From the NCBI GenBank assembly GCA_008802785.1, contig VUYT01000007.1, positions 434,001 to 498,000 on the forward strand: DNA of 64,000 bases, in the 5' to 3' direction. Source of the stretch: Symmetrospora coprosmae. Its lineage: Eukaryota; Basidiomycota; Cystobasidiomycetes; Symmetrosporaceae. The position numbers were made by a program, and so were the translations under genes. The notes beneath the pieces are model-generated. The model was not told where the DNA came from. It searched no databases and saw nothing but the letters and a program-made list of their open reading frames with translations. Position 1 is the first letter of the stretch. Every line of letters begins with the position of its first letter. This document shows, piece by piece, positions 475 to 32,433 of this stretch.

Positions 475-2960
475 ATGTCATACAAGGGCAAGGAGAGGGA
501 ATGGCAGTCATACGATGGAGGGAACAACGGAGAGGGGGACGACGACGGCGAGATCATCGAGCAGCAGCAGCAGCATCGCTATGGCAGTATCGAACAGGAA
601 CGGTGGGATGAGGATGGACAACAGGAGGAGGAGGAGGAGGACGGCGAGGACGATAGGCAGGCTCATGTCAAGCATGAACAACATGAAGAGGGTCATGACC
701 CCGAGGGACGGCCGCCGCCAAAGGATCCAATACCACGAGAGGCCTGGCTCCCGAAGCACGTCCTCGAACGGCCAAAACCGCCGACAAAGGAGGAGCGAGA
801 GGCAGAGGCCGCTCTCCTGGAAGCGCAGGCTAGAGCTGGGCAGAACACGAACGACCCAAGAGCAAAGGCGAGAGGCAAGGTGGGCGTCCCCGAGTCCGCG
901 TGCCGTTTGGCCAGAGCTGGCCAGAAGCAGCGGTGCGGAGAGCTGACGGTGCACCGATAATTGGACAGCCACGGCGAACGATAGACTACTTTGGACCGAT
1001 GACACGGTGGAAGCTGGTGGGTGGCATATCATGCACGAGCTTCTGCTGCGTACCCGGCTCATGCTGCTCTCTTCTGCGCTGGTCCGCCAGCTCCGCTCTC
1101 TCGCAAGCTGTCCTGGAGCACTGCCGCCAATACGACCGCAACCCAACTACATCGTGGATGTGAGTCCTGTGCGCCCTCTGATGACATGATCTTCGCCAGG
1201 CGAGCTCACCTCCTCCGTGCTCCCTTGGCCGACAGCTCATGCCGCCAAGCGCATATGAGTCCAACACTTCCATCGCCTTCTGCTCGAAATACGTGCACAC
1301 GTCGACCAACAAGGTCCGCACAGCCGTCAATACGGTGCGGTGGACTCCCGACGGGCGGCGTGTCCTCACAGGGAGCAACTCTGGCGAGATCACGCTGTGG
1401 AACGGCCTGACCTTCAATTTCGAGACCATCCTGCAAGCGCACGACCACCCCATCCGCGCGTTCGAGTGGTCTGCCAGTGGCACCTGGCTCGTATCGTGCG
1501 ACAACGGCGGGGTCATCAAGTACTTTCAGCCCAACATGAACAATGTCACGCTGTTCCAGGGGCACGTCGAGCCGATCCGCGACCTCAGCTTCGCGCCGGA
1601 CGACATGCGCTTCTGCACGGGCTCGGACGACGGCACCGTCAAGATCTGGGACTTCGAGCGGCGCGAGATGGAGAAGTCGCTCACGGGGCACGGGTACGAC
1701 GTGCGCTGTGTAAAGTGGCATCCGACAAAGAGCCTGCTCGTGAGCGGGTCCAAGAACAATCTGATCAAGTTCTGGGACCCGCGCACGGGCACGGACCTGC
1801 GCACCCTGCACGACCACAAGAACAGCGTGCAGGCGCTCAGCTGGTCGCCTAACGGGAACCTCGTTGCCAGCGCGAGCCGCGACCAGAGCGTGCGCATCTT
1901 CGATATCCGCATGATGAAGGAGCTGTACGACATGCGCGGGCATGCGAAGGATGTGTGCAGCTTGGCGTGGCACCCGGAGCACAGCACGTACCTCGTTTCG
2001 GGTGGCTCGGACGGCTCGGTCCTGCACTGGTGTCTGGACTCGCCGGCGCCCGAAGCACCCGTCGATACGGTCGAGTTTGCGCACGAGAACCAAATCTGGG
2101 CAATGGCGTTCCACCCGCTCGGCCACATCTTGGCGACGGGCAGCAACGACTATACGACGCGGTGGTGGAGTCGCGGGAGGCCGGGCAGCCACACCGTCAT
2201 GAACGACCGGTACCACATCGGTCGGGACAGGGCAAAGGAGCTGGGCGCAAAGGAGGACGACGACGACAATGACGACGACGAATTTGCGTCAGGCCAGCTG
2301 CCCGGTCTGTACCAGCGGGGCGGCGGCTATTCCCAGCACTACGGGAACCAGCAGTGGCAGGGGCAAGGCGGTGCTCCCCACTCGAGCTCGCACCTGCCCA
2401 ACTTTAGCATGCCCTCGAGCAATGCCAGCGCTCCTCCAGCGCCTGGCATCGGCATCGATACTGGCTTCTCAATACCCGGCCTTGACGCAGTCGCCAGGTC
2501 CGCAGCGTCTGGCGTCATCCCTGGTCTTGCAGCAGCGCAGGCCGCAGCTGCTACGGGCGGAGGTTCCGGGCACACGGTCGCGAACGCGTATGGGATGGCA
2601 AGGGCGGGACAGTCCTTGCCGTCGCAACTCGACGCGCTGCAGGGCGGCGGCGGGCAGCACCACCAGCACCAGCATCCGCACCAGCCGCACTTTGGGGGTG
2701 CGCCGGGATACCAGCAGTATGGCGGACCGCCGATGGGCCGAGGGGGCGGGCCGGGTCCTGGACCTGGTCCTGGTCCCGGACCTGGACCATACAGAGGCGG
2801 GCCTCCTCCTGGTGGTGTTGGGCGGGGCCGCGGCATTGGCTTTCCAGATGGCGGAGGCGGGCGAGGAGGGTTCGCCCCAGGAGCAGGTCCCGCCAACAGG
2901 CCTCCTGCAGGCGGGAGGTATAGCAACGCGGCGGCATCGGAGAGGTACAAGCCGTATTGA
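475..2960 (+). CDS. PFS2: Polyadenylation factor subunit Pfs2 (WDR33-like WD40 protein)
   Basis: WD40 scaffold of the cleavage and polyadenylation factor complex, acting in the nucleus on pre-mRNA 3' ends. Four exons close in frame: 475-879, 969-1016, 1091-1159 and 1236-2960 (748 aa). After an acidic, Gln/Glu-rich N-terminus comes the family signature RRTIDYFGP and then IVD-LMPPSAY across the third junction. WD40 repeats (about residues 195-490) follow, including WNGLTFNFETILQAHDHPIR and NMNNVTLFQGH, which are typical of Pfs2/WDR33. The C-terminus (about 500-748) is a disordered Gly/Pro/Gln/His-rich tail with a GPGPGP run around 2748-2789. WDR33 proteins also carry a Gly/Pro-rich tail, so this fits the family. 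The ATG at 475 is chosen because the frame is open from there and MSYKGKERE is a plausible start. Identity is clear; the first 130 residues are less certain. Confidence 0.93.
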
Positions 2961-3115: not shown

Positions 3116-5315
3116 ATGAACGTCGCGGCCCCTTCTGTGACGCTGGCTGCTGCGCCATCACCACCACCATTGTCACCCTCCTCAGCGTCCATGTCGTGGT
3201 CGCAGCTCTCGTCGCTCCTCTCGTCGTCGTCGCACCCCCTCGGCGGCCTCGTCGAGCGCCTCCAGTCCCTGCCGGGCAGCGCCGTGCTCTGGCGGTACAT
3301 CAAGTCGTCGCACCAGAACGACCCAGCGCGCACATTCCTCGAGCTCCTCCTCTTCCTCTTTATCGTCTACACCTGGCTCAAGGGGAGGACCAGAGGGGAG
3401 CGCGCGGGCAGGAACTTTGTGAAGCTGTCTAGGAAGGTGCGGCGTGCGCAATCACAGTGCGGGTGATGCAGCGACCGGACGCTGATGCTGCTGTCTCTAC
3501 ACTGCTGCTCCATTGACCCTGCTGCTCCATTCTGGCTGCTCTGCTCGCTGCTCGGCCTGCACGCACGGGACCGACTGCGACTGCGCGCCGCGAACGACGA
3601 TGACCCTGCGCTGCTTGACCCTACACACACGCGTCTATTGTGCGCCCACGTACACAGGAGATTGACGAGCTCGTGGAGGAATGGCAACCGGAGCCTCTGG
3701 TCTACGACGACCCGGAGCTGGCAGCCCTGCCAAATCCACCCGTCATCGTCGGACCACCGTCCCTGCATCCAAAGGTCGTCTCGCAGATACCCGAGCCGCC
3801 TAGCATGCTCGTGGGGCCTACCGGCTCAATGAACAATGGCACCTCGACATCGCTTGCTACACAAGGCGGCAATGCGGCCAACAGCCTGATCCCCGGCATC
3901 GGCGAGACGGGCAAGCTCCCTTCGGAGCGGAGCGTCATGAACCTCGCATCGAGCAACTTCTCGGGACTGGCGCTCAACGAGCGCGTCAAGGAGAAGGCGA
4001 TAGAGTGCCTCCGCGGCTACGGCGTCGGCTCGTGCGGGCCGTCTGGGTTCTACGGCTTCTTTGACGTGCACATTGAGCTCGAGAACGCGCTCGCCGCGTA
4101 CGTCGGCATGGAGGCGGCCATCATCTACGCGCAGGGATTCACCACCGTCTGCTCAGTCATTCCTTCTTTCGCGAAGCGGGGCGACATCATTGTCGCAGAC
4201 AAGGGCGTCAACTTCGCGATCCAGAAAGGCATACAAATCAGCAGATCCAGAGTGCGCTGGTACGACCACAACGACATGGACAGCTTGGAGGAGGTCCTCG
4301 AGACTATTGATAGGGAGAACAAGCGAACGAAGGCACCTCTAACGAGACGCTTCATCGTTACCGAGGGACTCTTCGAGGGTGATGGGCAAATTGCGGATCT
4401 GCCGCGACTGGTGGGTCCGCAGCAACCATAGCTCGCCGGCGCACGCGGATGACTCCTGACGCAAGTCTGGTGCCGTGCATTGCTTCTCCCCCGCAGATCG
4501 AGCTGAAGAAAAAGTTCAAGTATCGCTTGATGCTGGATGAGACCTGGTCATTTGGCACGCTAGGCAAGATGGGCCGAGGCCTGTCAGAGATCTACAATCT
4601 ACCGGTGAGCCAGGCTGTTTTCGTGTGCAGCTACTATGCGTGGCTCATGCGCTGTTCATGGCATCGCAGGCCAGCGAGATTGATATGATGATGGGCTCGA
4701 TGGCTGTCGGGCTCTGCTCTGGCGGCGGGTTCTGCATGGGCTCGAGCAACGTCATCTCGCACCAGCGCATCAACTCGGCTGCCTACGTGTTTTCGGCGTC
4801 GCTGCCCCCGCTGCTGGCTGTTGCGGCCAACGAAGGCCTCTCGTACCTGTCTGGCGCCATGTCGACGAACGGGCAGCTGCCGCTGGCGACGCTGCCGGAG
4901 AATGTGCGGGCGTTCCGCGCAATCCTGGACAAGCTCGACAGCATCATCTACATTCCGTCGAGCCCCATCTCGCCCCTGATCCACGTGCACATCCGCCGCA
5001 CCGAGGGTCTGACGTTCTACGACCAGGAGAGGCTGCTGCAGGAGATTGTCGACGAGTGCATAGTCAATGGCGTGCTCGTCAACCGGACAAAGAAGGTCTG
5101 GAAGCAGGAGAGCGTCGAAGGGAGCCCGAGCCTGCGCATCAGCATGTCGGCGGGACTGACCAAGAAGGAGGTCGAGAAGGCGGCCAACGTCATCAAGGTG
5201 AGAAGTCATCTTCTCTGCAGCATCGTACAGAGCTTTGCTAAAGACTGACGCGCTTCGCTTTCGTTCACCCTAGTCTGCACTCCAGTCCAAGCTCGGCAAG
5301 GGTGCAAAGAGGTGA
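3116..5315 (+). CDS. LCB1: Serine palmitoyltransferase subunit 1 (Lcb1)
   Basis: Regulatory, non-catalytic subunit of the ER enzyme that condenses serine with palmitoyl-CoA, the first step of sphingolipid synthesis. Exons 3116-3436, 3658-4410, 4497-4604, 4670-5197 and 5274-5315 give 583 aa. One hydrophobic segment ([15 protein letters not shown], about residues 72-87) is the membrane anchor. A fold type I aminotransferase body follows: [52 protein letters not shown]. Around [18 protein letters not shown] there is no PLP-binding lysine, as expected for Lcb1 rather than Lcb2. An insert after PPSLHPKVV ([14 protein letters not shown]) is low complexity. An in-frame ATG at 3191 (MSWSQ) is an alternative start. 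The gene lies 155 bp downstream of PFS2 in the same direction. Confidence 0.94.
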
Positions 5316-7861: not shown

Positions 7862-9383
7862 CTAAGACAGTCCGACCATCACTACGCTGCTGAGCACGAG
7901 GGAAAGCGTGACGGCAATCCAGCTGAGGGCAAGCGCCGATCGTGCAGCAGAGTCCGCCGGAGTCGAGGTCGGAGCAGGCTGCCCCAAACGGGTGTTTGGT
8001 ACGAAAGTGCCATCGACAAGGCCAGTCGTGACGAGCTCGAGTGTAGGTCGTCCAGAATCATCAGTCGTGCTTATTGCAACGACTGCGTTAAGATGGAGGG
8101 AGCCGGGATTAGCCACGACCTTCTCCAAGCTTCCGCCGTTCACCAGACGCACCTTGAGATCGCACCGCACCGTTATCATCGCGGATGACAGTTGCGACGG
8201 CACGGCCTGCTGAGTCCGTAACAGTGCTGCCACCGCCATTGCCATTGCCGCCAGCGGGGCGCGTCGTCCTGCCACCGCCACCGGGAGTAGGGGTGGTCGT
8301 GCCGCCGCCGGCAGGGGGGTTGGAGGGACACTTGGATCCGGTAGTACGCTGTCCAGTGCGGATGTCGATACAGCGCTTGGCAGAGCACCACTGGGTGAGC
8401 TCTGGAACCGGAGAGCAGAGGCGGTGGCGAAAGTATGGTCAGAAGCAAGATTCGCCGCCAGAACAGTCCAGAATAATTCCAAACGTACTGTCTCCGAAAC
8501 TGGAAAAGGATCCGCCGTACAGGGGGCCAACGCCCTGACCGCCATCGCAGACGCGGCAAGCCCCCCAGGTGTCGATGACTAGCTTCCGGCAAGGGTCAGT
8601 TCCGGAAGCGAGCTGGAGCAGAGCATTGCATGTATCGTAGCAAGCGTAGCTCTGAGGTGAACCTCCGGTCTGTGTGCAGCTTTTTATATTGAAGGTGGAC
8701 CATGAAGGTGGCCTGTAAGTGAGTTTCAAAGTAGAGGGAGAAGGACAAGAGAAGCGAACGGGGCAGCTTACATTCCAGGACGTCCATCTGCATCCTCCAG
8801 CGACTCAATCTCTTCCGTAGATTTGCAGCTGAAGCCGCCAATCCAGACGTTCCTGCGTGGCACACCGTCGTAGTTGGGCCAGCATTTGCTGCAGTACACT
8901 CCGCTAGTCGAGTTCGTGTACTGCTCCGGCTGCGACTCGCAAGACAGGCTGCAATTTCCGTCGTAGTCTGTAGCGGGAGGGTAGGTCTTGTCACCAGGAG
9001 GCGTCTCCCCGCCAGACGGCGGATTGGGCGTTTCTCCACCCGGAGGACTGGGCGTTTCTGGGCTTGGGGTCTCGGGCGGGTTGGGCGTGGTAGGAGGGTC
9101 ACCGGGCGTATTGTCTCCCGGGGGTGTAGAAGGAGGCGATGGCTCGGAAGGCGGCTCGGCAGGGGAGGGTGTGTCTTCGCCCGGAGTAGGAGCAGGGGTC
9201 GGTGTGGGTGTGGGTGCAGGCTCGACATCCGTGGTCTCCTGTCGCGCCGCCAGGTGAGGCCTGGCCATGCAGGCTGTTGCAAAGGCCATATCAGCCAATG
9301 ACTATCGTGCAGCGTAAGTCTATCGCTTGCGGTGTCCAACCACTCGCAACCAGCGCGAGGAAGAGGAGGTAGCGCAGGAGCAT
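7862..9383 (-). CDS. Secreted Cys-rich, Pro-rich GPI-type surface protein (copy A1)
   Basis: I do not recognise a named family. Exons on the minus strand are 9344-9383, 8772-9273, 8489-8712, 8153-8401 and 7862-8082 (411 aa), and every junction closes in frame. The start MLLRYLLFLALVAT is a signal peptide split by the first intron. A long Pro/Gly/Thr/Ser stretch follows (9230-9000), then Cys-rich modules: NCSLSCESQPEQ, GVYCSKCWPNY, then the core SCTQTGGSPQSYACYDTCN, DPCRK, ACRVC, WCSAKRCIDI. A Gly-rich linker leads to SAGRAVATVI and STTDDSGRPTLEL, and the C-terminus (ALALSWIAVTLSLVLSSVVM) looks like a GPI-anchor signal. It is a paralogue of the gene at 11809-13531 and lies head-to-head with 10022-11462. 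Cell-wall or plasma-membrane display is inferred from the two terminal signals. Confidence 0.75.
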
Positions 9384-10021
9384 TGTGGGCTCTGAGATTT
9401 AGGTGAGGGTCGAGGTTGGCTGATCTGGCTGCTGCAGCTTGTTGATGCGAATGGGAGGAAAGTGGAGAGATGAGATGGTCACGGAGGAGATGTTATACCC
9501 TCTGGAGGCAAAGTCCGGAGCTGTGCTCAGGGGGTGAAGGGCGAACGGAGGAAGAGGATGGGGTCAATGCAGGCGAACAGCGTCACTTTGCGATGCGTCC
9601 AAGGGGTCAGTGCATGCCCTTGTGCGGGCGGTGCGCATGCATGTGAGTGCGGTCCAGACTCTGCTATGCATGACCCACCGACGGAGGTCCGGAGGCAGTG
9701 ACACACACCCACACACCCCCTGGCCTCCCTCCGATCCTCCGGACCCACTGTGGGATGGTCCAAGAATGTTGACGAATGCGCGCGACAACAAAGGGATGAT
9801 GCGATGGTCTGGACTGTCACATTGCATTGCCCCGGGACCCACTGACTGACACACTCGGACCTCCTGCACGGGTGGGAGACGGAAGGCGGTTCCGAGCTCC
9901 GCTGGCAGCTCGCTTGGCGTATTCGTCGTCGAGCAGCATGTCCTGAAGAAGGGCATTTGATGTTGCTCTCTCTCCTCTTCATACTCTCATCTTTCAACCA
10001 CCATCCTCGCAGCCTTGCACC
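9384..10021. promoter_or_regulatory. Divergent promoter of pair 1 (A1/B1)
   Basis: This is a 638-bp head-to-head intergenic region with no supported gene. It contains the direct repeat GGACCCACTG at 9741-9750 and 9835-9844 (94 bp apart) and a perfect 10-bp inverted repeat, GGTCCGGAGG at 9686-9695 and CCTCCGGACC at 9736-9745. A CA-rich stretch lies between the inverted arms (about 9701-9718). The B1 side ends in a CT-rich leader (9962-10010). The matching region of pair 2 carries the same decamer twice, differing in one base. A regulatory role is inferred; it could also be leftover homology from the duplication. Confidence 0.5.
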
Positions 10022-11462
10022 ATGGCGAAACCCGATTTCAAACTGTCCTAGTAGGCCTCTGCCAGACTGGGGTCCAGACGCCGCGCGCTGCGATAGAGAC
10101 TGACGCATCCCGAAACAACCTCCCACAGCGCCGCGACCATTCCGTTCTCTGCACGAACGAGCATCGTTCTCTACACCTTTTACGCCGTCGCCGCAGCGCA
10201 GCCGGACTCCTCGTCTGGAACTTCTTAAGTCAGGCGAAGGGATTGCAGTGCACCAGCAGCTTTGCAAGCGGAGAATACAACAATGCCACTTGCGAGCCCG
10301 CACGGCTCGAGTTTGGGAGGTCCTACTACACGCGCTCGACCAGCTCTGTCGTACCGGGCACCATTGGGACGTTCCCCTGGCAGCCGTACGGGTTCGGCAA
10401 CGGCTCGAACGACACCCCGCTCGATTACACTATCCTCACGTCCAACTGGACCGCTGACCCCCTCTCGTGCGTCATGTACGAGCAGTTCCTCGTTCTCGAC
10501 CTTTCGACGGAGAACAGGTGCGTCCATGCCTGCAGGTGTCGCTAGCTACCACGCGAACTGACATTCGAGAGCCTCTCCCAACAGCGTGGCGAATGCTTGC
10601 TACTACTGCGGCAGCAATCTCCGCGTCATCTGTGCGACAATGGATGCCCAACGCATGCAAATCCCCGACATGTCTGCCGTCTCGTACGTCCAGGTCCTCG
10701 ACAGCTTCAACAGGCTCAGCGTCCTCGCGCACGGCATCGCCACCTCCGCCGTCGAGGGTGCCACGGTGGGGTCAGTCAGGATCAAGCGCAAGCGCGCCAT
10801 CTCATCTCTCCCCGCCGGCATCATACCAGTCACGGAGGACTCGTTCAGTATCACGCTCGGTTCCACCGTTGGCTCGTTTCCCATCGACGCCTCCAACTCG
10901 AAAGCCGCCGTAGCCGGGGTGGCCTCATTCGCCCAGACGCTCAGTGAGTGTGAAGAGCTGCTGTGCCGTGCTTACAGTGTACCGACAACCGATGTACGCC
11001 TTACCAGGCCAGATCGTCGAGGAGGCCATGGAGCGCGACCTGCAGCCTGGGGATGATTCTCAGCCAGCTCGCACGCTCCAGGCCAGCTACCTATGCAAAC
11101 ACTGCGAGAAGCGATACAAGCCTGCACTCGAGATCATCGCTCTCCTGCTGAGCGGCACGGCCGCGCTGCTCGCCCCGCTCATGACCGCAGCCAAGCTAGT
11201 GGCAGAATGGTGAGTCTGTCCGGCCTGCATTAATGGCGCATGGCCCGTACTGACGGTCACTCTACTCGACCATTGCAGGATGTCGCCGGCACCGGAGAAG
11301 CACGACATCGCAACCGGGCCCGGCGACTACGGCTATAAGCCTACCACTCCTTCGGCTCTACCCACGCCGGCTCTCCAGACTTCCTACCCCACCTATCCGG
11401 TGCCGTACCCCGCGAATCCTCCGATGCAGCAGCTCAGCTACCAGGGCGGGCCGTATCAGTGA
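10022..11462 (+). CDS. Two-pass membrane protein with large ectodomain (copy B1), frame broken in TM1
   Basis: Paralogue of 14381-16015; family unknown. Exons by homology are 10022-10050, 10129-10517, 10585-10943, 11008-11209 and 11279-11462. The start MAKPDFKLSYAATIPFSARTS leads into a hydrophobic segment whose frame does not continue into the ectodomain. A perfect 5-bp tandem duplication (GCAGC at 10193-10197 and 10198-10202) accounts for the shift, since the copy at 14381 has exactly 5 nt less there. Used as it stands, the first frame stops after about 42 residues. If the first intron instead ended at 10196, all later exons would be in frame (364 aa), but most of TM1 would be lost. The ectodomain has sequons (NAT, NGS, NWT), ACYYCGS and VICATMD; LCKHCEKRYKP precedes TM2 (ALEIIALLLSGTAALLAPL), and a Pro/Tyr-rich tail ends the protein. 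Confidence 0.65.
10193..10202 (+). repeat. 5-bp perfect tandem duplication inside TM1 of B1
   Basis: GCAGC is present twice in a row within the first membrane segment of B1. The aligned stretch of B2 is exactly 5 nt shorter between the Tyr codon and the Ala-Gly-Leu-Leu codons. The position coincides with the point where the conserved reading frame changes. Confidence 0.8.
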
Positions 11463-11808
11463 GGGGTCCAACTCTGCTGCGATGGCAAGATAGGGAGTCT
11501 GGGGTGTTAGAGAGGGCTGGAGGCTAGGCAGGGTATGGGAGCAGGTCGCATTCGATGAATGTCAGAGCGCTATGATACGTGAAGTGATGATTTGCTTGCT
11601 GTACGGCGGCAACGTGCGAGATCATGAACAGCACTTAATGACATTCACAGACCTGGTACTGCGAGATCACATTCACAGACCTGGTACTGCGAGATCGCCT
11701 GGGATGCTAGAGACACGAGAGAAAGCCTACTCTACAACACCACACTGCTGCACTCCTACCTCCTGCTTCCTGCCCAGACACCTGACTACAGATCGTGACA
11801 ACTGAAGG
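11463..11808. other. Convergent gap between B1 and A2
   Basis: This is a 346-bp 3'-to-3' intergenic region without a gene. It holds the 28-bp tandem repeat listed separately and the decamer CTACTCTACA at 11727-11736. The same decamer lies at 7784-7793, at nearly the same distance (69-73 bp) beyond the stop codon of A1. The latter suggests that the duplicated block includes the 3' flank of the A gene. Confidence 0.6.
11641..11696. repeat. Perfect 28-bp tandem repeat, two units
   Basis: A 28-bp unit starting ACATTCACAGACCTGGTACT occurs twice without any mismatch (11641-11668 and 11669-11696), in the gap between the two gene pairs. Perfect identity in non-coding DNA suggests a young duplication. 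Confidence 0.95.
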
Positions 11809-13531
11809 CTAGACCAACCTGAGCACAAGGAGGCTTAGCGCGAGGGAGAAGGTGCCGATGGCATGATTGAGGCGGACTGCCGCGAGCGACCCGGATGGGC
11901 TTGAAGTCGCAGTGGGAGGTGAGGAGCCGAGTCTCGTATTTGGTGTGAATGTGCCTCCCACCAGAGCCTGCGTAAAGAGCTCTAGGGTGGGCCGTCCGGA
12001 GCCATCGGTAGTACTGACGGCAATGACTGGGCGGTAACGATTGATGCAAGGATGATGTGTCAGCGCCCGTCCGACTAGTGATCCCGGCGCGCGAGCAGAT
12101 TTCACCTTGGGACAGAGCTACGCCATTCTGATCGTTGATAACAGTAGCGACTGCTCGGCCGGCGCTCACGACTGTGCTATCTCTGACAGCACTAGCAGCC
12201 GGAGCAGTCCCCGCAGCCACAGCAGTAACTTCGGGTAACTTCGGCATTGCCGCTCGCAAGAGAAGGTATGTCGCTCCCCGCTACCGCAGCGTTGCCGCTC
12301 GCGACGGGACGAGTAGCCGCAGCTGTAGGTACAGCGTTGCTGTTCGCGATAGGGGATGTATTTGTGGCTGCCTGAGCAGCTTTTGCAGGCGTAGCGACCG
12401 ATGCTCCATCGGAGATCATTGCGCCTTTCCTACCATCTCCAGGTGTCTGAACTGAGCGCGTAGTGCCCTGGACTGGACAATTAGCAATCTTCTTGTTGTT
12501 GACAAGGTCCGTACAATGCTTGTCGAGGCAGTACTTGACGAGATCTACCAGTCATGTCGCCGTGTATTAGATAGATTTGGCTTCGATTGTGAGCAGCGGG
12601 TAGATCGAGCCATGCCGTTCTCACCATCTCCATAAGCTCCGAGTTGGACATAGACATTCGTATCCACTTGATCTTCATCCAAGCATTCCATGCAGGAGGT
12701 GAAGGTATTATACGTATTCTCGTTGCACGGGTTGGACTCTTTCGCTAATTGAAAAAGCGAATTGCAAGTGTCGTAGCAAGCTGGGCTACCGCCTGGTTCG
12801 GGAATCCCACATGCTTCGTCTCTGTGCACAATTGAGCATAGTTTAGTGAGCGAGCTCGCATTGATGATTAGCTACTCACCCTGTTTCAGGATCCACTGAC
12901 ACCACGATCTGCGACTCGTGACATCGGTGTGGCATCCTCGTGGGAATCTTGGTGGGCTCTGGGACACTAGCCCCCGTCCCGGTAGGCTGTTCCGGGATGA
13001 CTGTCGTTCCAGCCTGTGGCTGCCGCGCGGCCTCCTGGTTCTTGCCGTTAGCGACGGGCGTCGCGTCCTCTGATGATGGTGTCGATGCGTCGGATTCTCC
13101 GTCCTTCACATCTCCCGGACCTTCTGTTGCAGGTGCTTGTGTGTCCTCTGTGGACGCCTTTGGAGAGGCCGGAGTCGTATTGGATCCATTCTGCTCTCGT
13201 TCGTCCCCGTCATCGGCGGATGGCGGAGAGCTCACGCCAGTAGGCGTATCGCCCGAAGGTGACGTCTCCTCGCCTTCAAGACTGGGCTGTTGGTTGCGCT
13301 GTGGTGTTAGTGTGAGACTTTATCTGCTGGTTGTCGGATCAAGCGAGTCTGTGCCTACCGCGGCATCAGTTGACGTGCTGGCCTGCCGTGGTGACAGAGT
13401 TTGCGGGAGCGCAAAGCAGGCTGCAACGACTCAACGATAACAGCAATTAGTATTCTCCTTTCCCTCATTTCATTCAATGTCTTCGACTCACTAGCGACGA
13501 AGGTGAGAAAGAGGAAGTGGCGTAGCAACAT
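11809..13531 (-). CDS. Secreted Cys-rich surface protein (copy A2), frameshifted before its GPI signal
   Basis: Paralogue of A1. Exons on the minus strand: 13492-13531, 13359-13420, 12880-13298, 12625-12821, 12106-12544 and 11809-12026. The signal peptide MLLRHFLFLTFVAT is split by an intron at the same codon as in A1. An acidic, Pro/Ser/Thr-rich region then leads to the shared Cys core (ACGIPEPGGSPACYDTCN, SNPCNENT, SCMEC, YCLDKHC, ANCPVQG). In exon 5 the frame breaks: GTAACTTCGG is present twice in tandem (12225-12244, plus-strand sequence). With both copies the frame stops at 12192, after about 356 residues, before SAGRAVATVI, STTDGSGRPTLEL and the hydrophobic tail. With one copy the frame would continue to 11809 (454 aa) and match A1. 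As written, the product would be secreted but not anchored. It has one intron (13299-13358) that A1 lacks. Confidence 0.7.
12225..12244 (-). repeat. 10-bp perfect tandem duplication in exon 5 of A2
   Basis: GTAACTTCGG occurs twice back to back. Exon 5 is 439 nt, which breaks the exon phases; 429 nt would satisfy them. The arithmetic, the homology to A1 and the duplication all point to the same site. Confidence 0.9.
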
Positions 13532-14380
13532 GATGGGTCGAAGCAAGCGCGTAGAAGTGGTAAGCCTGTCCCTATTGCGGGGGTGGAAAAGCTAGCTATG
13601 GAGGAAAGGATGCACAAGAGAGAAGAGGAGGGGAGAAGGCGAGAGGGTTCTTGTAGTGCTCAGAGCGCAGGCATTCTCCTCTCGTCTGTCAGTATGGTCT
13701 GGATTCTGGCTCGCAGGGGGCGGTACAGCGGCTCAGCGCTTGCCGCACCGGGCCGAGTGCACCGCTCCTCAGAAGCCGATCCGTGACTCAGTACCGCTTT
13801 GTTAACGTGAGTACGAAACGTCTCTGAGTCCCGTCTGCTCGCGGCTCTGGGATCTCATCAAGATCTGGACTTCAAGCAGGGAGCCGGCGGGCGCGCTCAC
13901 AGAGGGTGCGTGGTGCTTACGAGACGAGCGAAGCGCAGGAGCGGGATGCACACCACGGTACCGGTGCTGGACCCGGAGACTCTTTTGTCTTACCCTCAGG
14001 TCTGTGATCGTGGTAGGACCCACAGCCGCAGCGGAATCCTCCCGAGCCAAGGGGTTCTGTCTTTGCCACCAAGCAAGTCGAGACCGAGCAGCTTTGCGCA
14101 GGACCCACAGTGACTTCGCCTGCCATTTTCTCACGATTGCGCTCTAATCTCTGGCGTTCTGCAAATCCGTCCTGCCGATATGCCCTGATAACCTGTGCCT
14201 GGACCGCTCGCTTCGCGGGAATCTGTCTGGACCGGACGGTCTCCACAATGGACGACGCTACATTCACCTGCAAGCACAGAGCATGGCTGTGCATGCTCGT
14301 CCAACAGCGCTGCCCTTTGCCTCTCCTGCAAGCGAGAGGATCCACCAAGCTGTCTGCCGGCCCCCGTCAGCGGAAGCAAG
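13532..14380. promoter_or_regulatory. Divergent promoter of pair 2 (A2/B2)
   Basis: This is an 849-bp head-to-head intergenic region without a supported gene; short open frames in it show no conserved features. GGACCCACAG occurs at 14016-14025 and 14101-14110 (85 bp apart). This mirrors the twice-repeated GGACCCACTG in the promoter of pair 1. The strand sense of the motif relative to the B gene is the same in both pairs, and in both the two copies lie on the B side. No TATA box is obvious. Confidence 0.5.
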
Positions 14381-16015
14381 ATGGCAAAGCCCAGCCTGAA
14401 CCTGTCCTATGCTGCAACAATCCCTTTCTCGACCGGGATCAGCATAGCCCTCTACATCTTCTACATCAGCGTGTTAGCCGGGCTGCTTGCTTGGAACTTC
14501 ATCTCGTCCGCTAAAGGTGGGGAGGCCATGCTTGATTACCGGTGATCCTGCCGTAGGACTGATCTTGCGCTCGCCTGCTTCGACATACAGGCGTACAATG
14601 CACCGCGTACAGCAGCGGGGAGTACCATGGTGGGCCTTCACGCTTCTCTGTAGTTAGCAGAAGGTCTCGCTAATATCAAGAGTCACTTCTGTACGATGTA
14701 GCCGACCACTGCGACGCGGCCTCGCTTCAATTCGGCAGGAGCTACTACACTCGGCCTACCACCTTAGATGTTGCAGCCGGCACTATCGGTACATTTCCCT
14801 GGAGTCCGCTAGCCTTTGGGAATGGCACTGCAGGCGCATCGCTAGACTACACTTTGCTATCTGCCAACTGGACAGCGGATCCTCTGACATGCGTGGTACG
14901 TTCCCCGGTTCTTGCACGAAGGTCGCGGCTACCGGACCACAGAATGCTAACCATACCCTGCAGATGTACGATCAGTACCTGATACTCGATGTAAGCTGGC
15001 TGTCACTGGGTTTTCAAGACCCCTGCGATGAGTCGTAGCTGACGAAACTCTGCTCAACCCCACGCGCAGCTCAGCACAGAGGGGAGTACAAGCAATGCTT
15101 GTTACTACTGCAACGATCTCCTTCGTGTCATCTGTACAACCATCGATTCTCAAAGGATGCAGATCCCGGACGTGTCCGCTGTGAATTATGTTCGGGTGCT
15201 CGACAACTTCAACCAGTTGTCAATCCTCGCCCATGACGTCGCTACGACAGCTCAAGCAGGTGCCACGGTTGGCTCGGTTCGCATTAAACGCCAGCGAGCC
15301 ATTCCCTCGCTTCCGGCTGGCGTCATTCCCGTCACGGAAGACTCGTTTTCAGTCATTCTCGGAAGCACGATTGGCTCTTTCCCCATCTTCTCGAACAACT
15401 CCAATGCAGCGGTGGCTCGAGTAGCATCGTATGCCGAGACACTCAGTGAGTAGCAGTCGGACCTGTGACCAGTCGAGCAAGCTCGCTGATAAGAACGTCC
15501 ACCACAGGTCAAATCGTCGAGGAAGCTACGGAGCGGGACCTGCAACCAGGCGATGCGTCAGAGCCCACTCGAACGCTCCAGGCGTCGTACCTCTGCCGAA
15601 CCTGCACAAAGGAATACAAGCCGGTGCTCGAGATCATCGCCCTGCTACTTGGCAATACCTTCGCAGTACTCACACCGCTGTTCACGGCAGCCAAACTCAT
15701 CGCAGAATGGTGAGCGACTTCGATACTGTGGGCTTGAAAGCGACGAAGCTGCGCAGAGGCTGACTGCGCTTGGCATCGCGGTTCCGCAGGATGAGCCCGT
15801 CACGTTCGGCGCAGAATTCAGCTAGTTCCAACGCAGGCACGCCGCCTGCCTCTCCTGGACCTCAGCTCTACAAGCCGACGTCAGCGAGCATGCCGTCTAC
15901 GCCTGTATATCAGCCGATGCAGCAGCCGACATACCCGACGTATCCTGCGGCCTATCACCAGGTCGCAAATCCAGCCATGCCAACCCTTCCTTATCAGCCA
16001 GGGTACCGCATCTGA
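14381..16015 (+). CDS. Two-pass membrane protein with large ectodomain and Pro/Tyr tail (copy B2, intact)
   Basis: Seven exons (14381-14516, 14591-14629, 14702-14895, 14964-14990, 15070-15445, 15508-15709, 15790-16015) close in frame to 399 aa. I do not recognise the family. Predicted layout: short N-terminus MAKPSLNLSYAATIPFS; TM1 about residues 19-40 (ISIALYIFYISVLAGLLAW); an ectodomain to about residue 290 with Cys residues (VQCTAY, DHCDAA, LTCVMY, ACYYCND, VICTTID) and sequons NGT and NWT; then YLCRTCTKEYKP, TM2 (EIIALLLGNTFAVLTPLF) and a Pro/Tyr-rich cytosolic tail (PTYPTYPAAYHQ). Both ends would lie on the cytosolic side. It is divergent from A2. B1 has an intron after codon 9 that B2 lacks, while B2 has several that B1 lacks. 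Confidence 0.75.
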
Positions 16016-16404: not shown

Positions 16405-19034
16405 CTAGAGCGGTCCCTCGCTGCCGTCCATGAGCCCCTCAGCCGAGACGGAGGGATGGGGCTTCTTGTCGTCCTCGCCCGCGTTGGGGATATTGCTCGT
16501 CTTCGCCGACGGGGACGACTGCACGCCTCGCACCGCCGAAGGGGGTGACAGGATGTAATCCGGTCTCTCGGCGCCCGGGCTGAGCTTCTCCGGCGCCGCG
16601 GGGGAGTGGATGGGCACGCTCGACGCCGAGGACGCAGAGTCCGTGTGCGGCGTCCGCGGTCCGCCTCCCGAGCTCAACGACGACGACGTATCCTCAATCA
16701 TGGCGTCCTCGTCGAGCGACGTCGGCGACTTTGTCGTGTTGTACTGGTCGGAATCGTCTCCCTCCATGTCGTCATCGTCGTCGCCCCGCCCGAAGCGCAG
16801 CGTCCCGTTGTTGATTGCGTTCGTCAGGAAAGATGTCGGGCCGGAGAGAGCACCTCGCGCGCCGCCCTGTTGCTGTTGTTGCTGCTGGCCGCGGTTTGCG
16901 AACGGGTCTGGCAGGTCGGTCGGTCTGCGGCGTTTTGGAGAGTAGCGTCAGCCAGCGAAGCGACAGCAGGACACGACGGGCGAAACCCACGTCGAGTAGC
17001 CAACATTGTTCGTGACCCGCTCCTTCATCCAGTCGTACCACTCTGCCTTGGTCTTGCCATTGAGGAGGGCGACGAGCATGACGGTCATATTGTCGCACCC
17101 GACGCCGCCCCAGTCGCTGTCCGGCGCGAGGCACTTGTCCATCATGAGCTCGCAGATCTCGTGGAGCTCCTTGCCGTCGCCGAGGCAGCGCCGCACAAAG
17201 TCGACCACTTCCTGCGACTTGAGCACGTCCCAGATCCCGTCGCACGCAATCACGAGGAACTCGTCCTCGGCCGTCGACGTGTGCACCTCGATCTCTGGAT
17301 CCGCAGTCACAATCTGCTGCTCGGCCGGCAGGTTTTGGTTTTGCTTGAACTCGAAATCGCCAAGCGCGCGCGAGAGGGCGAGGTTGCCTGATGAACGACC
17401 GTCGAACGGGATCAGCTGAAGGCCGTCAAATCGGGAGCGAGCACAGTCGCCCACCGTTGACTCGGCCAAACTCGACAAAGCCGCCAGCTGCGACAATCCG
17501 GCTGTTCTCGCCCTTGTTGACTGGCTTGTGGTCGTACGATAGCGCCTTGACCTTGCCTCCAATCGACATGACTGACCGCGAGTCTCCGGCGTTGGCCTGT
17601 CGGCGAGGTGCAACATCAATGTAAGCGGACGGGCACACGCTAGACCGGGGTCCACCACAGGCCACGCACGACGTAGATCGTGTTGTCTTCCGTGATGATG
17701 GCCGCCACCGCCGTGCAGCCTGATGTGTCGTGCGCGTATTCGGGGTCTGCAGAGGCATTGCAAGTGCATCAGCACGCTGCTGACGTGCTGCAGCACCGTC
17801 CCGCGCTGGACACGCTGTCAGGCGCATGCACGCACTCGCTCGCAAGTCCTCATCCGTCTTTACGAATGCGCGCGTCATGGACTCCGAGTATTTGCCCTCC
17901 TGGTAGAGGTCGAGCGCGCGCAGTCGCTTGTGGACAGTGTCGCCAGAGTAGCGCGCGACGGTGGAGCCTGCAGACAGGGGCCGGATCTGTCAGCATCCGT
18001 CACACAAAACAAGCCAGACTGGAGCCGTATCCGGACCCACCTCCATGTCCGTCGTATACTGCGAAGAAGCTGTTCTTCCCCTTTTTACCGGATCCGCACT
18101 GCGCCGCCGCGCTCTCGTCTGGGTTGTCGAGGTTGAGTATCGTTGCGTGGGCGTCTTCCATGCCTGGCGGCGCGTAGAGGAGAATGAAGGACAGGCAGGA
18201 CTTTGTCAGCTCTGCACAGACAAGCAAGGATGCGGCATGACACGCAAGAGCGGTAGGGACGGATGGGCTTTCCTGACTAGGGAGCGAGGGCGAGGGTCAT
18301 GCTGATCTGTCCGATAACGCCGCCGTCCGCAGCCGGCATAACGCAGGGCGAAGGCTAGTCCGGAGCTGGCGCCAGCTCCAGGCAGTCACCACGGCATCCT
18401 CATGCATGCCTCCAGGCTTCCACCATGCCAAATCGTCCCGCACAATCGTCTCAGGACTAGGTGGAGACGGGGGAGCCTGCAGGGACAGCGCAGCAGAGCA
18501 TGCCCGCCCAGCGAAGCTTTCTCCGCCCGTCTCTGTCGATGCCTGGCTGCTTGCATCGAGACGGGGGTGGCACCGGTCGCAGACGCTCCTCCACTGCAGT
18601 GTTGCTGTGCCATCCTGCTTGCATCTCTGCAGTTGTCGCGCTTGTGTCCACGGGGATTTGCGCAGTTCCGTCGACCATCTCGCTGCCCTCTCTTGCGTGC
18701 TCTGCCCTGTTGGCCGTCGTCGTCGCCCCCGGGCTGAACGGCCTGACACCGTCCAACCACGGCACACCGCAGTGCTATGCACGCACACGTCGATGTACTG
18801 CTGGTGCACATCCTCAACACGCCTTCCTCTCCCTCTCCTGCTGTCTGAACTCCTCCGCCATCCCGCCTCCCGATCTCCCTCCCGCCCGCAGTCACGGTCT
18901 GTCCATCAACAGTCACTTCGCTTTCACTCACTCAACCTCCACCCTTGCATCTCGGACACTGCAAATGCGAGGCGGTCATCCTCGCCGTAGCTCGTGTGCT
19001 TTGTCACTTCTGGCTCGGATAGCGTCTGTCCCAT
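16405..19034 (-). CDS. PTC2: Protein phosphatase 2C, Ptc2/Ptc3 type
   Basis: Mg/Mn-dependent Ser/Thr phosphatase; yeast Ptc2/Ptc3 dephosphorylate Hog1 and cell-cycle kinases. Exons: 18932-19034, 18041-18163, 17836-17967, 17670-17746, 17455-17596, 16991-17387 and 16405-16924 (497 aa). The start [15 protein letters not shown] is typical of this subfamily and fits N-myristoylation (Gly2, Ser6). Metal-site motifs are present: [46 protein letters not shown] and [11 protein letters not shown] Gln/Ser-rich C-terminal region after [13 protein letters not shown] resembles the tails of fungal Ptc2/3. The first intron is 768 nt, about ten times the length of the others. The Ptc2 symbol is by type; orthology between Ptc2 and Ptc3 is not resolved. 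Confidence 0.92.
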
Positions 19035-23909: not shown

Positions 23910-25088
23910 TTACGCAACCACCACAGCGACAGGTATCCCTCCAATAAGTATACACACCGCAGTGATCAAGCTAGCCAAGCCCAGGGTCGGAGTGCCGCTC
24001 AGACCGTGCCCGGACGTGCAGCCTCCTGCTATCCGGCTACCGAGGATCGTCAAGAACCCGCCTGCGACAGCTGGTACTGTCGGTGCTAGGGAGGCGACCC
24101 GGGTGCTGGGCAATGATGGTAGCGCGGGCAGGCATTGGACGAGCGCTAAGCTGCCGAGACCAACGCCGATGGCGAAGACTGTCGAGTCTGACAGCGTGAC
24201 TTGAAGGTTCCGACGGACTGGACCCGCAGGCATCGAGCTGTCTCGACCGCTTCCTGCACTTGCGTTTCGGGGGAAAGTCACTGAACTCCAGACGTTCTCG
24301 TAGAAGGTCGAGATGCCAATTGTCTTGCGGCGTGTCAGGATGGAGAACAGCTGAGCAAAGCCGAGAAGAACCCCGCCCCGCATTGGCCCGGAGTGAACCA
24401 GGGACAAGAGTGACAGATGTCCTCCTTGGATGAGATACAGGCAGGCTGTAGCTAAGCCGAGAGCAAGTATGGGCGCCGCATCGTGCGGGAGACGCAGCAG
24501 GGCTGTCAACGTCGTGGGTGCTGACGCAATTCGCTTTATTTGTGTGCTTGAGGCGGCTGGACGTGCGATGTGTCTCTCCAGAATGCGGTATGCGAGGCCT
24601 CCCAGTAGCGACCCGACGAACGCTGGACGTGCATTGTCCCATGGCCAGTGTCGCGGTGAGACCGACAGGGACGAAGCTGCCAGCACGAGGGTGGTGCCTG
24701 GGTCTGTCCCGCTCAGGGCCATTCCGACGCCCTGCAGCAGGCCTCCGACGATGTTCCCGTCGTAGACCGTCAGACGAGGAAGGAAGTTCTTGCTCGACGG
24801 TGCGCGTGGCAGTGGTGTGAGAAGGCCCAGTCCCCTCGGACCCGTGAGCAGGAGCACCAGTCTGAGCGGGCGGAGGGGGACGACGATGAGCTCGGCGATG
24901 CAGTGGATTGAGGAGGACAAGACACACGAGGTCGCGGCGCTTGCCGCGAGAAAGAGCTGCACGAGGGAGCTCGACTGGAGCGCGTAGTGCTGCCTGAACC
25001 AGCTGTACTCGTACGGGCCGCATAGGCCAGAAACCAGCAACGCCGACCCAAAGACGGCACCAGAGAGAAGAGTCTGGACGTGTGACAT
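23910..25088 (-). CDS. YeeE/YedE-family membrane transporter (putative sulphur-compound permease)
   Basis: Intronless 392-aa polytopic membrane protein starting MSHVQTLLSGAVFGSALLVS. The protein is an internal duplication typical of YeeE/YedE proteins: the first half has NIVGGLLQGVGMALSGTDPG, the second has RGGVLLGFAQLFSILTRRKT and then FLTILGSRIAGGCTSGHGLS. The Gly-Gly-Cys-Thr-Ser-Gly-His-Gly signature is diagnostic of the family, whose bacterial members import thiosulphate or related sulphur species; the fungal substrate is not known. About nine hydrophobic segments are visible. The start is placed at the first Met after which the hydrophobic core begins; longer upstream frames lack support. 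It is the only long intronless gene in the window. Confidence 0.88.
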   Translation of the reverse strand: MSHVQTLLSGAVFGSALLVSGLCGPYEYSWFRQHYALQSSSLVQLFLAASAATSCVLSSSIHCIAELIVVPLRPLRLVLLLTGPRGLGLLTPLPRAPSSKNFLPRLTVYDGNIVGGLLQGVGMALSGTDPGTTLVLAASSLSVSPRHWPWDNARPAFVGSLLGGLAYRILERHIARPAASSTQIKRIASAPTTLTALLRLPHDAAPILALGLATACLYLIQGGHLSLLSLVHSGPMRGGVLLGFAQLFSILTRRKTIGISTFYENVWSSVTFPRNASAGSGRDSSMPAGPVRRNLQVTLSDSTVFAIGVGLGSLALVQCLPALPSLPSTRVASLAPTVPAVAGGFLTILGSRIAGGCTSGHGLSGTPTLGLASLITAVCILIGGIPVAVVVA

Positions 25089-25822
25089 TGCTTGACCGCG
25101 ATATTTACTCGTGCACAGACGTCTTTGGCTGTCGTTGCCCAGAGTTGGGCGAAAGAAGCGGTGAAACGACGAGGCAAAGGCGTGACCTCGATCGTCCGCT
25201 CGAACTGAGCGAAACTCATCGTCAAGCCAACAGATTGTCGATATACGACACAGACCACGCCAAGGCATGAGTCCTGTGCATGTGTCTTTCGAAGCATCGC
25301 ATCGCTGTGCCCGCGTCTGCCATTCCGACATTATTTGGTGCGCGAGCCGTGCCTGCGGGCGTGCGTGCGTGCGTGCGAGCGAGCTTCTCCGCGTTGCCAT
25401 GAAGCTGGCGGACCTCCGTCACGGAGCCAAACATGCTCTCGCAACCGAACTAGCGCCATCGATAGCCCTGGTCTCCCTGCTCGCGTGGCTGCCCTGCTCG
25501 CCTTGTGACCACCTCGAGCGAGAACCCCTGGCTCATGCGCACATGGCGCCCGAATCACCTTGTCGACAGCGAGACTTGGCCTCCGAATCGCACGACCTGA
25601 TCGATGCCCGATCCCCCATGCGTTCTGCGGTCGTGGTGGATCTTACTTAAAGCTGCCCTGAACGTGCTCCTTGCCTCTTGCTTCTGCTCTTCTCGCTCAT
25701 CCTCGAAGATACTCAGATACTCAAACACTCGCTCACTCCCTGAATCTCAAAGCAAGTCTCCCATCTCCCACACTCACTTCCATCTCACTTACTCCCTCCA
25801 TCATACAACCAACCTCGCAATC
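25089..25822. promoter_or_regulatory. Divergent intergenic region, YeeE/YedE gene / cutinase
   Basis: This 734-bp region has no supported gene. A short GTGC microsatellite (four units, 25361-25376) is present. On the cutinase side an A/T-containing stretch (TTACTTAAAG near 25644) could act as a TATA-like element, followed by a long C/T-rich leader running to the start codon at 25823. Confidence 0.5.
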
Positions 25823-29415: not shown

Positions 29416-32400
29416 CTATCGGTCACTCGTCTGTGAGAGCATCTTGGTCCAGTCGTGCGCGTCGTACGCCTTGCGGAAGTGCTTGATGCGCTCGTCGTTG
29501 AGCTTCCTATCCATGCGCCTCGGCTTGCGCCACAGACGCGGCTGGAGCTCCATGACCTCTCCGATGATCTCCGCCGCAAAGTTGCGCTTGAACTCGCCTC
29601 CTCCTTTGGCGCCCTCGTCGAAATCGTACCCGTCGCCGGCGCCCGTCTCCGTCTCTGGCCCCTCGATGACGTGCCCATACCCTTTCTCGCCCTTGTGGTC
29701 CCAGTGCACCATGAAATACGGCAGGTTGGGCACCAGCGCGCGCCGGAACCCTCCTGGACGCGCAGAAAAGTCGATGAGCTTCTTGTGCTGCGACCACTCG
29801 GCTTCGACCGTCAGGATGGCCTCGCGGAAGTACCCCGGCATCTCCTCGAATGTCGCCCAGGGAAGAGGGAGGCACTCAATGTACGTGTGTCGCTGCCCTT
29901 TGAAGCTGAGCACAGTCTCGTAGAAAACAACGCCCTTGTCTTGTTGAGCATGCATCTGCATGAGCGTCTTCATGAAGTTCTGTGAATGCAAGCAAGACAG
30001 ACGGTGTCAGCTCGATCTTCGACGAGCAAGCCTTGTGGAACTGACCCTCATCTCGTCCCATGTATCGTCGTCCGCTTCGAGCGTCGAGAGATGATGCTGC
30101 ATCGGTACGATGAGAGCATGCCCATCGACCAGCGGCTCAAACAGGGGCAAGGCCAGATACGCTCGAGTCCCCATAGCCACCACAGCGGCTTGGGGAGGCA
30201 CAGTGGTCGTCTCGGTGTCCTGGTAGCAGAACTGACAAGTATCGAGAGCCTTTTTGGTCTTGCCGTAGTCATTGATGGCAAATAGCTTCTTCTGCGCTTC
30301 CGTCTTTTGCTTCTTCCGCGCGAGGCGGTCCGCAGAATCGTCCATGTAGTCGAGATCGTCTTCGAATTTCGCGTCCCCCGCGATGCGCGACGCCATCTCA
30401 ATGTCCATGTTCTTGCTGTCGCCCGACCCAGCGCCGAACCGCTCCTGCCGGACGAGCTCCTCCAAGGATGTGGTATCGTCGTCTGCGTTGTAGCGGAGGA
30501 GCTCGCCCGTCTTGGGATCGCGCGTCTCAAAGTACTTTTCCTTGCGCTTCCGCTTGCTGTTGCCCGGACCGAGCTTCGCGTCCTCCGCGTCCTCGGCAGC
30601 CTCGCCGCTCCTGCCAACATCGTACAGCCGCCCTCGTCCGTCGAGCGTGGGCAGCACCCGGATTTCATCCTGCCGCGCGCCCGGATCGGCGTGCGGTCCC
30701 ACGTCCTTGGCGTCGAAGTAGCCTCCTCCGCGATCGCCCTGCTTCGCCCGCGCACTCTCTCGCTCGTACGTTTCCTCCATCTCCTTCAGCTGCGCAGCGT
30801 CTCCGCCCATGAGCTTCGTCCGCAGTATCTTCGCCTGCAAGCGGTTCAAGCTTGTCGGGCTCATCGGCGCCTGGCTCAACAGGCTCTCGCTGCCCTGGCT
30901 GGTCGCGACTGCCTCCTCCGTAGCCGTGGTCGACACCTGCAGCTGGGACGGCTTGCGCGCGGCGTTGGCGAGGGCCGCTCCCATCGGCGGCGGGGTAAAG
31001 ACGGAGGGGATGGGCGTCGACGCTTTGGGCGTGTTGCCCACGCCGCTCGGCGTCCGGCTAACGGGCACGGGCGTGCCAGACCGGGAGTTGTCGGCGGACG
31101 AGCTGCCAGGACGCCTGAAGGAGCCTGCGCGGCTTGGTGGCCGCGATGATGCTGCCGAGTTGGGTTGCTCGTTGAAGATGTAGCGCGTAGTCTGGTGGGA
31201 TGGCGTAGAGCTCTGACCACTCCCGCTGGGACCAGCGAGAGAGCCGCTGCTGCTGCCACCTGCATCCAACCGTCTTTCCCGTCCGAACTCGTCCAGGCCG
31301 TCGTCACGACCGGTCCTGTTGCCTGCAGTTCCGCGGTCATCGGCCCGATCTCGCCCATAGGCGAGTCCAGCATTGTTGCCCCTCCGGCCACCCCGGTTGT
31401 CCATGACCTTCTTCTCCTCTTTGGCCGCCTCCCATAGCTCCTCACTACCAAAGCGCTCGATTCCGACTTCCTCGGGATCTCTTCCTTCCTCATTCGCTAC
31501 CTCGTAGACCCGCTTGAGCTTGGACATCCTCCATCCGCTGCCGCTGCTGCCAGGAATGGGTGGGCGCTGCCCATCGGCTGTATTCGAGTGCCGCGTAGGC
31601 TCTCCAGCTATTGCAGCAACGGAGCTTTCTGCTCGTGTGCCATCCGCATTGTATGCCGCCGTGTTGATCTCGCGCGACGACATCCTGACCTCCTGTACCT
31701 TTGGCTTTGCCTCGCTCTCCTTCCTCCTGCGCTCGGTGCCGAGGGATGAGAAGAAGTCGTCTCGCTCCTTGCTGCTGTGTACGGCACCCCCGAAGCTGCC
31801 CTTCGTGCCGACTTCGCCCTCGCCGTACCCGTCCGTGAACTGCTCGAGCGTATTGTGCATCGAGGGTCTCGCAATCCCCGTCGGCATCTCGCCCACACTG
31901 AAGGTGCCGCCGTGAGTCGAGTAGTCGCTCTGTCGGACGGGAGGAGCAGTCCGAGTGACGGTCGTGTCGGACAGCATCCAGTCTTCACGCTTCTCCTTGG
32001 GCAGCGTCTCGGCTGTCACGGACACTGGGAGAGCAGGGCCGGAGGAAGATGGCGTAGCATGGGAGGTGAGATGGAGCGAGTCGCGGGTAGGGATGTTGGC
32101 GACAGAGTTGGGCTGTGCGTGCGATTGCTGCGTGAGCGATCCTTGAAAGCCTGATTGCTGCTGCACGCTGCCTGCCATGACCTCACTCACCTCCTCGGCC
32201 GTCCCATCGCCTGCGCCTTTCTCGACCCAGAGGTCTTCCTCTTCATTGTCGCCGTCATCGTCGACCACTCTGCTCTGACTCTTGCTCTTGCTGCTGCTGC
32301 TCTGCCTGCTGCTATGGCTGCTCTTGTGCCTGCTGCTATGGCTGCTGCTGCTCCTCTCGTCCTTCCTGTCCTTGTCCCCGCTGCTGCGATGACGCTCGCT

Positions 32401-32433
32401 CCCACTGCCCTTCTCCTTGGATGAATGGCCCAT
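29416..32433 (-). CDS. CWF19: Cwf19-like splicing/lariat factor (CWF19L2 family)
   Basis: Nuclear protein associated with late spliceosomes and lariat turnover. Two exons (30046-32433 and 29416-29979) give 983 aa. The N-terminus is Ser/Arg/Lys/His-rich (MGHSSKEKGSGSERHRSSGD), followed by a long disordered part. CwfJ domain 1 begins near residue 729 with DTCQFCYQD and contains the HIT-like motif HALIVPMQHH. CwfJ domain 2 is in exon 2: QDKGVVFYETVLS, PYFMVHWDHKGEKGYGHVIE, KKLIDFSARPGGFRRAL and NFAAEIIGEVMEL. The intron uses a GTCAGT donor. The domain order and length agree with CWF19L2 rather than with the debranching-associated Drn1/CWF19L1 group. Confidence 0.9.

Follow-up and report, generated by a model that had tools for sequence, protein, structure and literature searches.

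A tandemly duplicated pair of divergent genes for putative surface proteins in Symmetrospora coprosmae, one of them a predicted member of a conserved Pucciniomycotina membrane protein family

Cell-wall mannoproteins of fungi that are GPI-anchored, rich in Ser/Thr/Pro and equipped with a Cys-rich head constitute a general class of proteins. One of the two gene families described here, designated A, is akin to this class, its copy A1 sharing the signal peptide, stalk, Cys-rich part and GPI-type end. The second family, designated B, includes proteins such as P389DRAFT_164727 of Cystobasidium minutum and BCR35DRAFT_352315 of Leucosporidium creatinivorum, in which the ectodomain, both transmembrane segments (TM1 and TM2) and eight Cys are found as in the copies B1 and B2 analyzed here. 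The B sequences from named species are annotated as hypothetical or uncharacterised. Among the abstract openings returned by a literature search, for which protein names were not among the queries, neither the A nor the B family turned up.

Both families are encoded in the window, the whole stretch of 64,000 nucleotides of contig VUYT01000007.1 (C74) that was analyzed within a 20.05 Mb genome of 77 contigs. The short introns and the B proteins of this genome point to a basidiomycete near Cystobasidium. The initial annotation had described a head-to-head A/B pair duplicated in tandem, and the positions and orientations of all four genes proved right. As outlined in Table 1, a segment of approximately 4 kb that carries two genes is present twice in direct tandem, as A1(-)/B1(+) and A2(-)/B2(+), with the gene order A-B-A-B in one orientation throughout. 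The exon models of A1, B1, A2 and B2 were built by hand; that of B2 is backed by the metagenomic protein P0001, which is of equal length and 97% identical. Downstream of B1, at 11642-11696, a 27-nt stretch is doubled in tandem with one base between the copies. Further along the window, at 60188-61924 on the plus strand, an open frame of 578 aa is rich in Ser/Thr/Ala and looks hydrophobic at its C-terminal end; it has no Pfam match, and its product is a candidate for a further GPI-type surface protein.

Table 1. Coordinates of the A and B genes, their shared upstream regions and Pfam-matched neighbours in the window
Feature	Position	Strand	Description
A1	9383-7862	-	411 aa, 5 exons, clean model
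A1 exons	9383-9344, 9273-8772, 8712-8489, 8401-8153, 8082-7862	-	
A1/B1 shared upstream region	9384..10021		638 bp
B1	10022-11462	+	two pieces read apart: N-terminal 33 aa, C-terminal 353 aa
B1 exons	10022-10050, 10129-(frame change near 10200)-10517, 10585-10943, 11008-11209, 11279-11462	+	
A2	13531-11809	-	layout as in A1; frame changes around 12240-12230
A2 exons	13531-13492, 13420-13359, 13298-12880, 12821-12625, 12544-...; C-terminal ...-12106, 12026-11809	-	
A2/B2 shared upstream region	13532..14380		849 bp
B2	14381-16015	+	399 aa, 7 exons, clean model
B2 exons	14381-14516, 14591-14629, 14702-14895, 14964-14990, 15070-15445, 15508-15709, 15790-16015	+	
Pfam-matched neighbour	1239-2960		WD40
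Pfam-matched neighbour	3640-4431		aminotransferase class I/II
Pfam-matched neighbour	16948-17796		PP2C
Pfam-matched neighbour	23910-25400		sulphur transport
Pfam-matched neighbour	30007-32433		CwfJ-like
Pfam-matched neighbour	38020-39240		BRO1
Pfam-matched neighbour	45597-47645		protein kinase
Pfam-matched neighbour	54055-55746		tyrosyl-DNA phosphodiesterase

A1/B1 and A2/B2 are a real tandem duplication, confirmed for both genes by similarities beyond chance. The C-terminal piece of B1 and B2 share 236 of 349 residues (68%), with a local score of 1191 against a maximum of 64 in 200 shuffles. For A1 and A2, 56 of 93 residues are identical in the tail (60%, score 251, maximum of 60 in 200 shuffles) and 34 of 94 in the Cys core (36%, score 149, maximum of 51 in 200 shuffles). 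A1 and the N-terminal portion of A2 also yield a single local alignment of 326 positions with 33% identity, which scores 292 against a shuffled maximum of 87, much of this alignment being low-complexity stalk. Thus, the proposal that each gene resembles its counterpart over most of its length holds for B, while in A the firm matches are confined to the signal peptide, the Cys core and the tail; the S/T/P-rich stalks align loosely, and a region of A1 of about 70 residues with five Cys (approximately 112-180) has no clear counterpart in A2. At the DNA level, comparison of the copies (minimum length 40, seed 11) found a single block of 210 nt at 73%. Six-frame searches of the whole genome yielded no further convincing copy of A or B among the best candidates scored, the sole match elsewhere (E 0.89, contig C8) deriving from the end of the A2 stalk.

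Judged by sequence, B is a conserved, previously undescribed family of Pucciniomycotina membrane proteins. B2 comprises TM1 (about residues 19-44), an ectodomain with eight Cys, TM2 (about 297-326) and a Pro/Tyr-rich tail, the ends of the transmembrane segments being set by homology to the modelled protein P0006. The view of B as a two-pass membrane protein is borne out by two hydrophobic segments in the hydropathy profile of B2, but B1 as assembled is not open: all eight Cys and TM2 are present, and a frame change breaks TM1. With a profile built from P0002, P0001 and the B1 piece, the 7994 candidates with the most words in common were scored (clusters at 90% identity); B was found in at least seven named Pucciniomycotina species and at least 13 sequence rows, one row per named species. 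The eight ectodomain Cys are invariant in all nine rows counted, four partial rows being left out, and an NWT sequon occurs in seven of these nine. B2 matches the C. minutum protein with an E value of 4.5e-124 over 81% of the query; identity to this protein is 57% for B2 (214/378) and 60% for B1 (209/349).

Database comparisons placed B in none of the families searched: Pfam gave no match for B2 and NCBIfam none for P0001 and P0002. Across the 13 B rows, a Pfam domain, Usp, was found in P0010 alone (E 4.6e-18). P0010, from Phenoliferia psychrophenolica, is a B gene model that runs on into this universal stress protein domain, either as a fused model or as a true fusion. The two Usp matches in the present genome lie on contigs C1 and C11, away from B, which hints at different neighbours of B in different species. 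Other Pfam matches for B were weak (best E 0.047, E7, in two rows) and were taken as chance, as were the PDB sequence matches of the B profiles (best E 0.27 and 0.053). In bacterial and archaeal GTDB genomes and in viral contigs, 4 and 14 pattern-matched stretches, respectively, were recovered, none of them related to B.

Protein A had initially been annotated as secreted, Cys-rich and of GPI type, and the predicted features of A1 agree with this. A1 carries a signal peptide, an S/T/P-rich stalk, a Cys-rich part, a conserved C-terminal tail and a hydrophobic GPI-type end, with 14 Cys beyond residue 15 and hydropathy peaks at 1-19 and 390-408. The N-terminal peak is present in A2 as well; the C-terminal piece of A2 has no window over the 1.5 cut-off, and its C-terminal feature is weaker. 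Neither A1 nor the N-terminal portion of A2 matched a Pfam family (best E 1.1 and 1.3). With B2 likewise unmatched, the earlier failure to recognise either family finds its counterpart in the lack of a Pfam family for both. The best PDB sequence match for the A alignment (E 0.4) was taken as chance. Outside this genome, no relative of A was found among 5849 candidates with A1 residues 112-411 as query. This search uses at most 100 words; since A1 has 15 of 296 exact 5-mers in common with the A2 pieces, a relative as similar to A1 as A2 is would have stood a fair chance of becoming a candidate. Even the sources of P0001 and P0003, which supply B2-like and B1-like proteins, gave no A in this search, and together with the word limit this makes the absence of A elsewhere weak evidence. 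Compared between the copies, the A sequences indicate faster change than in B (36% identity in the core and 60% in the tail versus 68%).

The duplication is old and the genes are under purifying selection. Between B1 and B2, dS is 1.99 and dN/dS 0.15 (349 codons); for A1 and A2 the values are 1.70 and 0.22 in the tail and 2.69 and 0.26 in the core. The last two introns coincide in B1 and B2, and the remaining two introns of B1 and four of B2 do not. These non-coinciding introns and the synonymous sites near saturation both argue for an old event. A tree built from 15 B rows shows B1 with P0003 and B2 with P0001 as sister pairs (100/99 each) that are joined at 100/99; C. minutum and its metagenomic neighbours P0011 and P0013 fall outside the joined clade. 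Hence, the duplication took place after the lineage had separated from C. minutum and before it separated from the closest relatives sampled. In these metagenomic relatives B1-like and B2-like proteins are both present, possibly in different organisms. Silent sites this close to saturation cannot establish a joint duplication of A and B in a single event. Between the upstream regions of the two pairs, no similarity was detectable (score 21.0, shuffled mean 21.7, 100 shuffles), and the sequences downstream of B1 and of B2 do not resemble each other (score 18.0, shuffled mean 18.9). For the region downstream of A1 against the B1-A2 spacer, similarity is borderline, its score of 25.0 (shuffled mean 18.0) equalling the maximum of 25.0 among 100 shuffles; a score reached by about 1 in 100 shuffles helps or hurts little and was not counted.

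The explanation we favor, and consider reasonably probable, is that two neighbours were copied together as one segment of about 4 kb, B being a conserved surface sensor or scaffold and A a faster-changing GPI wall protein that probably acts independently. A single unequal exchange or a similar event may have copied the segment with its two divergent genes, in the interval given by the B tree. B would begin with a short N-terminus in the cytosol, followed by TM1, a glycosylated ectodomain stabilised by disulfides of its conserved Cys, TM2 and a variable cytosolic tail, which in B1 and B2 would be the Pro/Tyr-rich part. By its topology, B most likely serves at the plasma membrane as a sensor or scaffold that faces the wall. 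A would be a GPI-anchored, stalked protein resembling wall mannoproteins and evolving faster. Their adjacency would account for the joint copying of A and B, and their functions are probably independent.

The initial annotation took the joint duplication as a sign that A and B work together. Nothing found supports this, as tandem copying takes neighbours regardless of cooperation, and the A-B-A-B order is not evidence for cooperation because a direct tandem duplication of about 4 kb produces it for any neighbours. In such a working pair, GPI-anchored A would act from the wall side as a ligand or partner for the ectodomain of B, the shared upstream region would co-regulate both genes, and A1/B1 and A2/B2 would be parallel pairs of changed specificity. 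The divergent arrangement in both copies would fit, as would the long retention of both partners in both copies with silent sites near saturation and the secretory-pathway appearance of both proteins; an A that evolves faster than B would suit a partner with changing specificity. We nevertheless regard a working pair as rather unlikely, since the two upstream regions are without resemblance, neighbours get copied without any function, and B is detected in at least seven named species whereas A (query A1 residues 112-411) was found in this genome and not outside it. The same difference in detection hints that the two families are scattered independently; it goes no further than a hint because A evolves fast and the A search was blank even in relatives that hold B.

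A quite improbable alternative is that the duplicate is partly decayed, with B1 and perhaps A2 being pseudogenes and only A1 and B2 active. The frame change of B1 lies inside TM1 at 10190-10205, within a GC-rich stretch, and the three listed splice options that keep the frame open each remove most of TM1. As B1 is frame-shifted as assembled, it is uncertain whether all four genes have been maintained. In A2, the frame of exon 5 changes at a 10-nt tandem repeat (12225-12245) and is broken unless a further intron is assumed. Both changes would be expected of decaying genes. However, the 353 codons of the B1 C-terminal piece contain no other disabling change, and constraint is evident on both sides of the break, with the dN/dS of 0.15 over 349 codons on one side and of 0.06 over 28 codons on the other. 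A B1-like protein exists in a relative, the closest outside relative of B1, P0003, being identical at 180 of 192 aligned residues. A2 is readable with one more intron, for which 26 single GT-AG introns of 45-299 nt in exon 5 would serve. The B1 frame change is either an assembly error or a recent mutation, and a single-base assembly error in a GC-rich stretch would look identical to decay.

The structure of B was also predicted. A first prediction from three sequences was discarded (pLDDT 34.8); the B model shows TM1, a mixed alpha/beta ectodomain and TM2. An internal sequence repeat of the ectodomain, suggested by strands-helix occurring twice, was not seen by hhalign, whose sole match covers 5 columns where the two pieces overlap. 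An ion-channel-like reading of B drew on a strand directly after TM1 and another directly before TM2, as in P2X/ASIC-type channels; no P2X/ASIC-type chain is among the matches listed, which is no test of this reading. A viral-structure search returned two rows under E 0.001, one of them rat cytomegalovirus Pr152.5, which were not relied on (rmsd about 28, TM 0.07-0.28). By fold alone, the B ectodomain was compared with the MHC class I alpha1-alpha2 platform. It is highly improbable that the ectodomain forms such a platform of strands and two helices outside vertebrates and their viruses, displaying or binding a ligand at the yeast surface with the fast-evolving GPI protein A as partner; if true, the duplicated pairs would represent a fungal system of surface recognition with two specificities.

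Returning to the favored explanation of copied neighbours, the duplication is an ordinary genomic event and an A/B system is unproven; the interest lies in the annotation gap. Sequence and a partial model outline what is probably a conserved family of surface proteins in a large subphylum of fungi, not covered by the Pfam copy used, and the duplicated neighbour pair offers a test case for functional retention of divergent neighbours. Unlike fungal GPI-anchored wall mannoproteins, A is without a Pfam match, its conserved tail before the GPI signal is without a named relative, and its GPI anchor is predicted. Within its own family, B is represented elsewhere by at least one row per named species, in contrast to the tandem pair described here, and the C-terminal tails differ.
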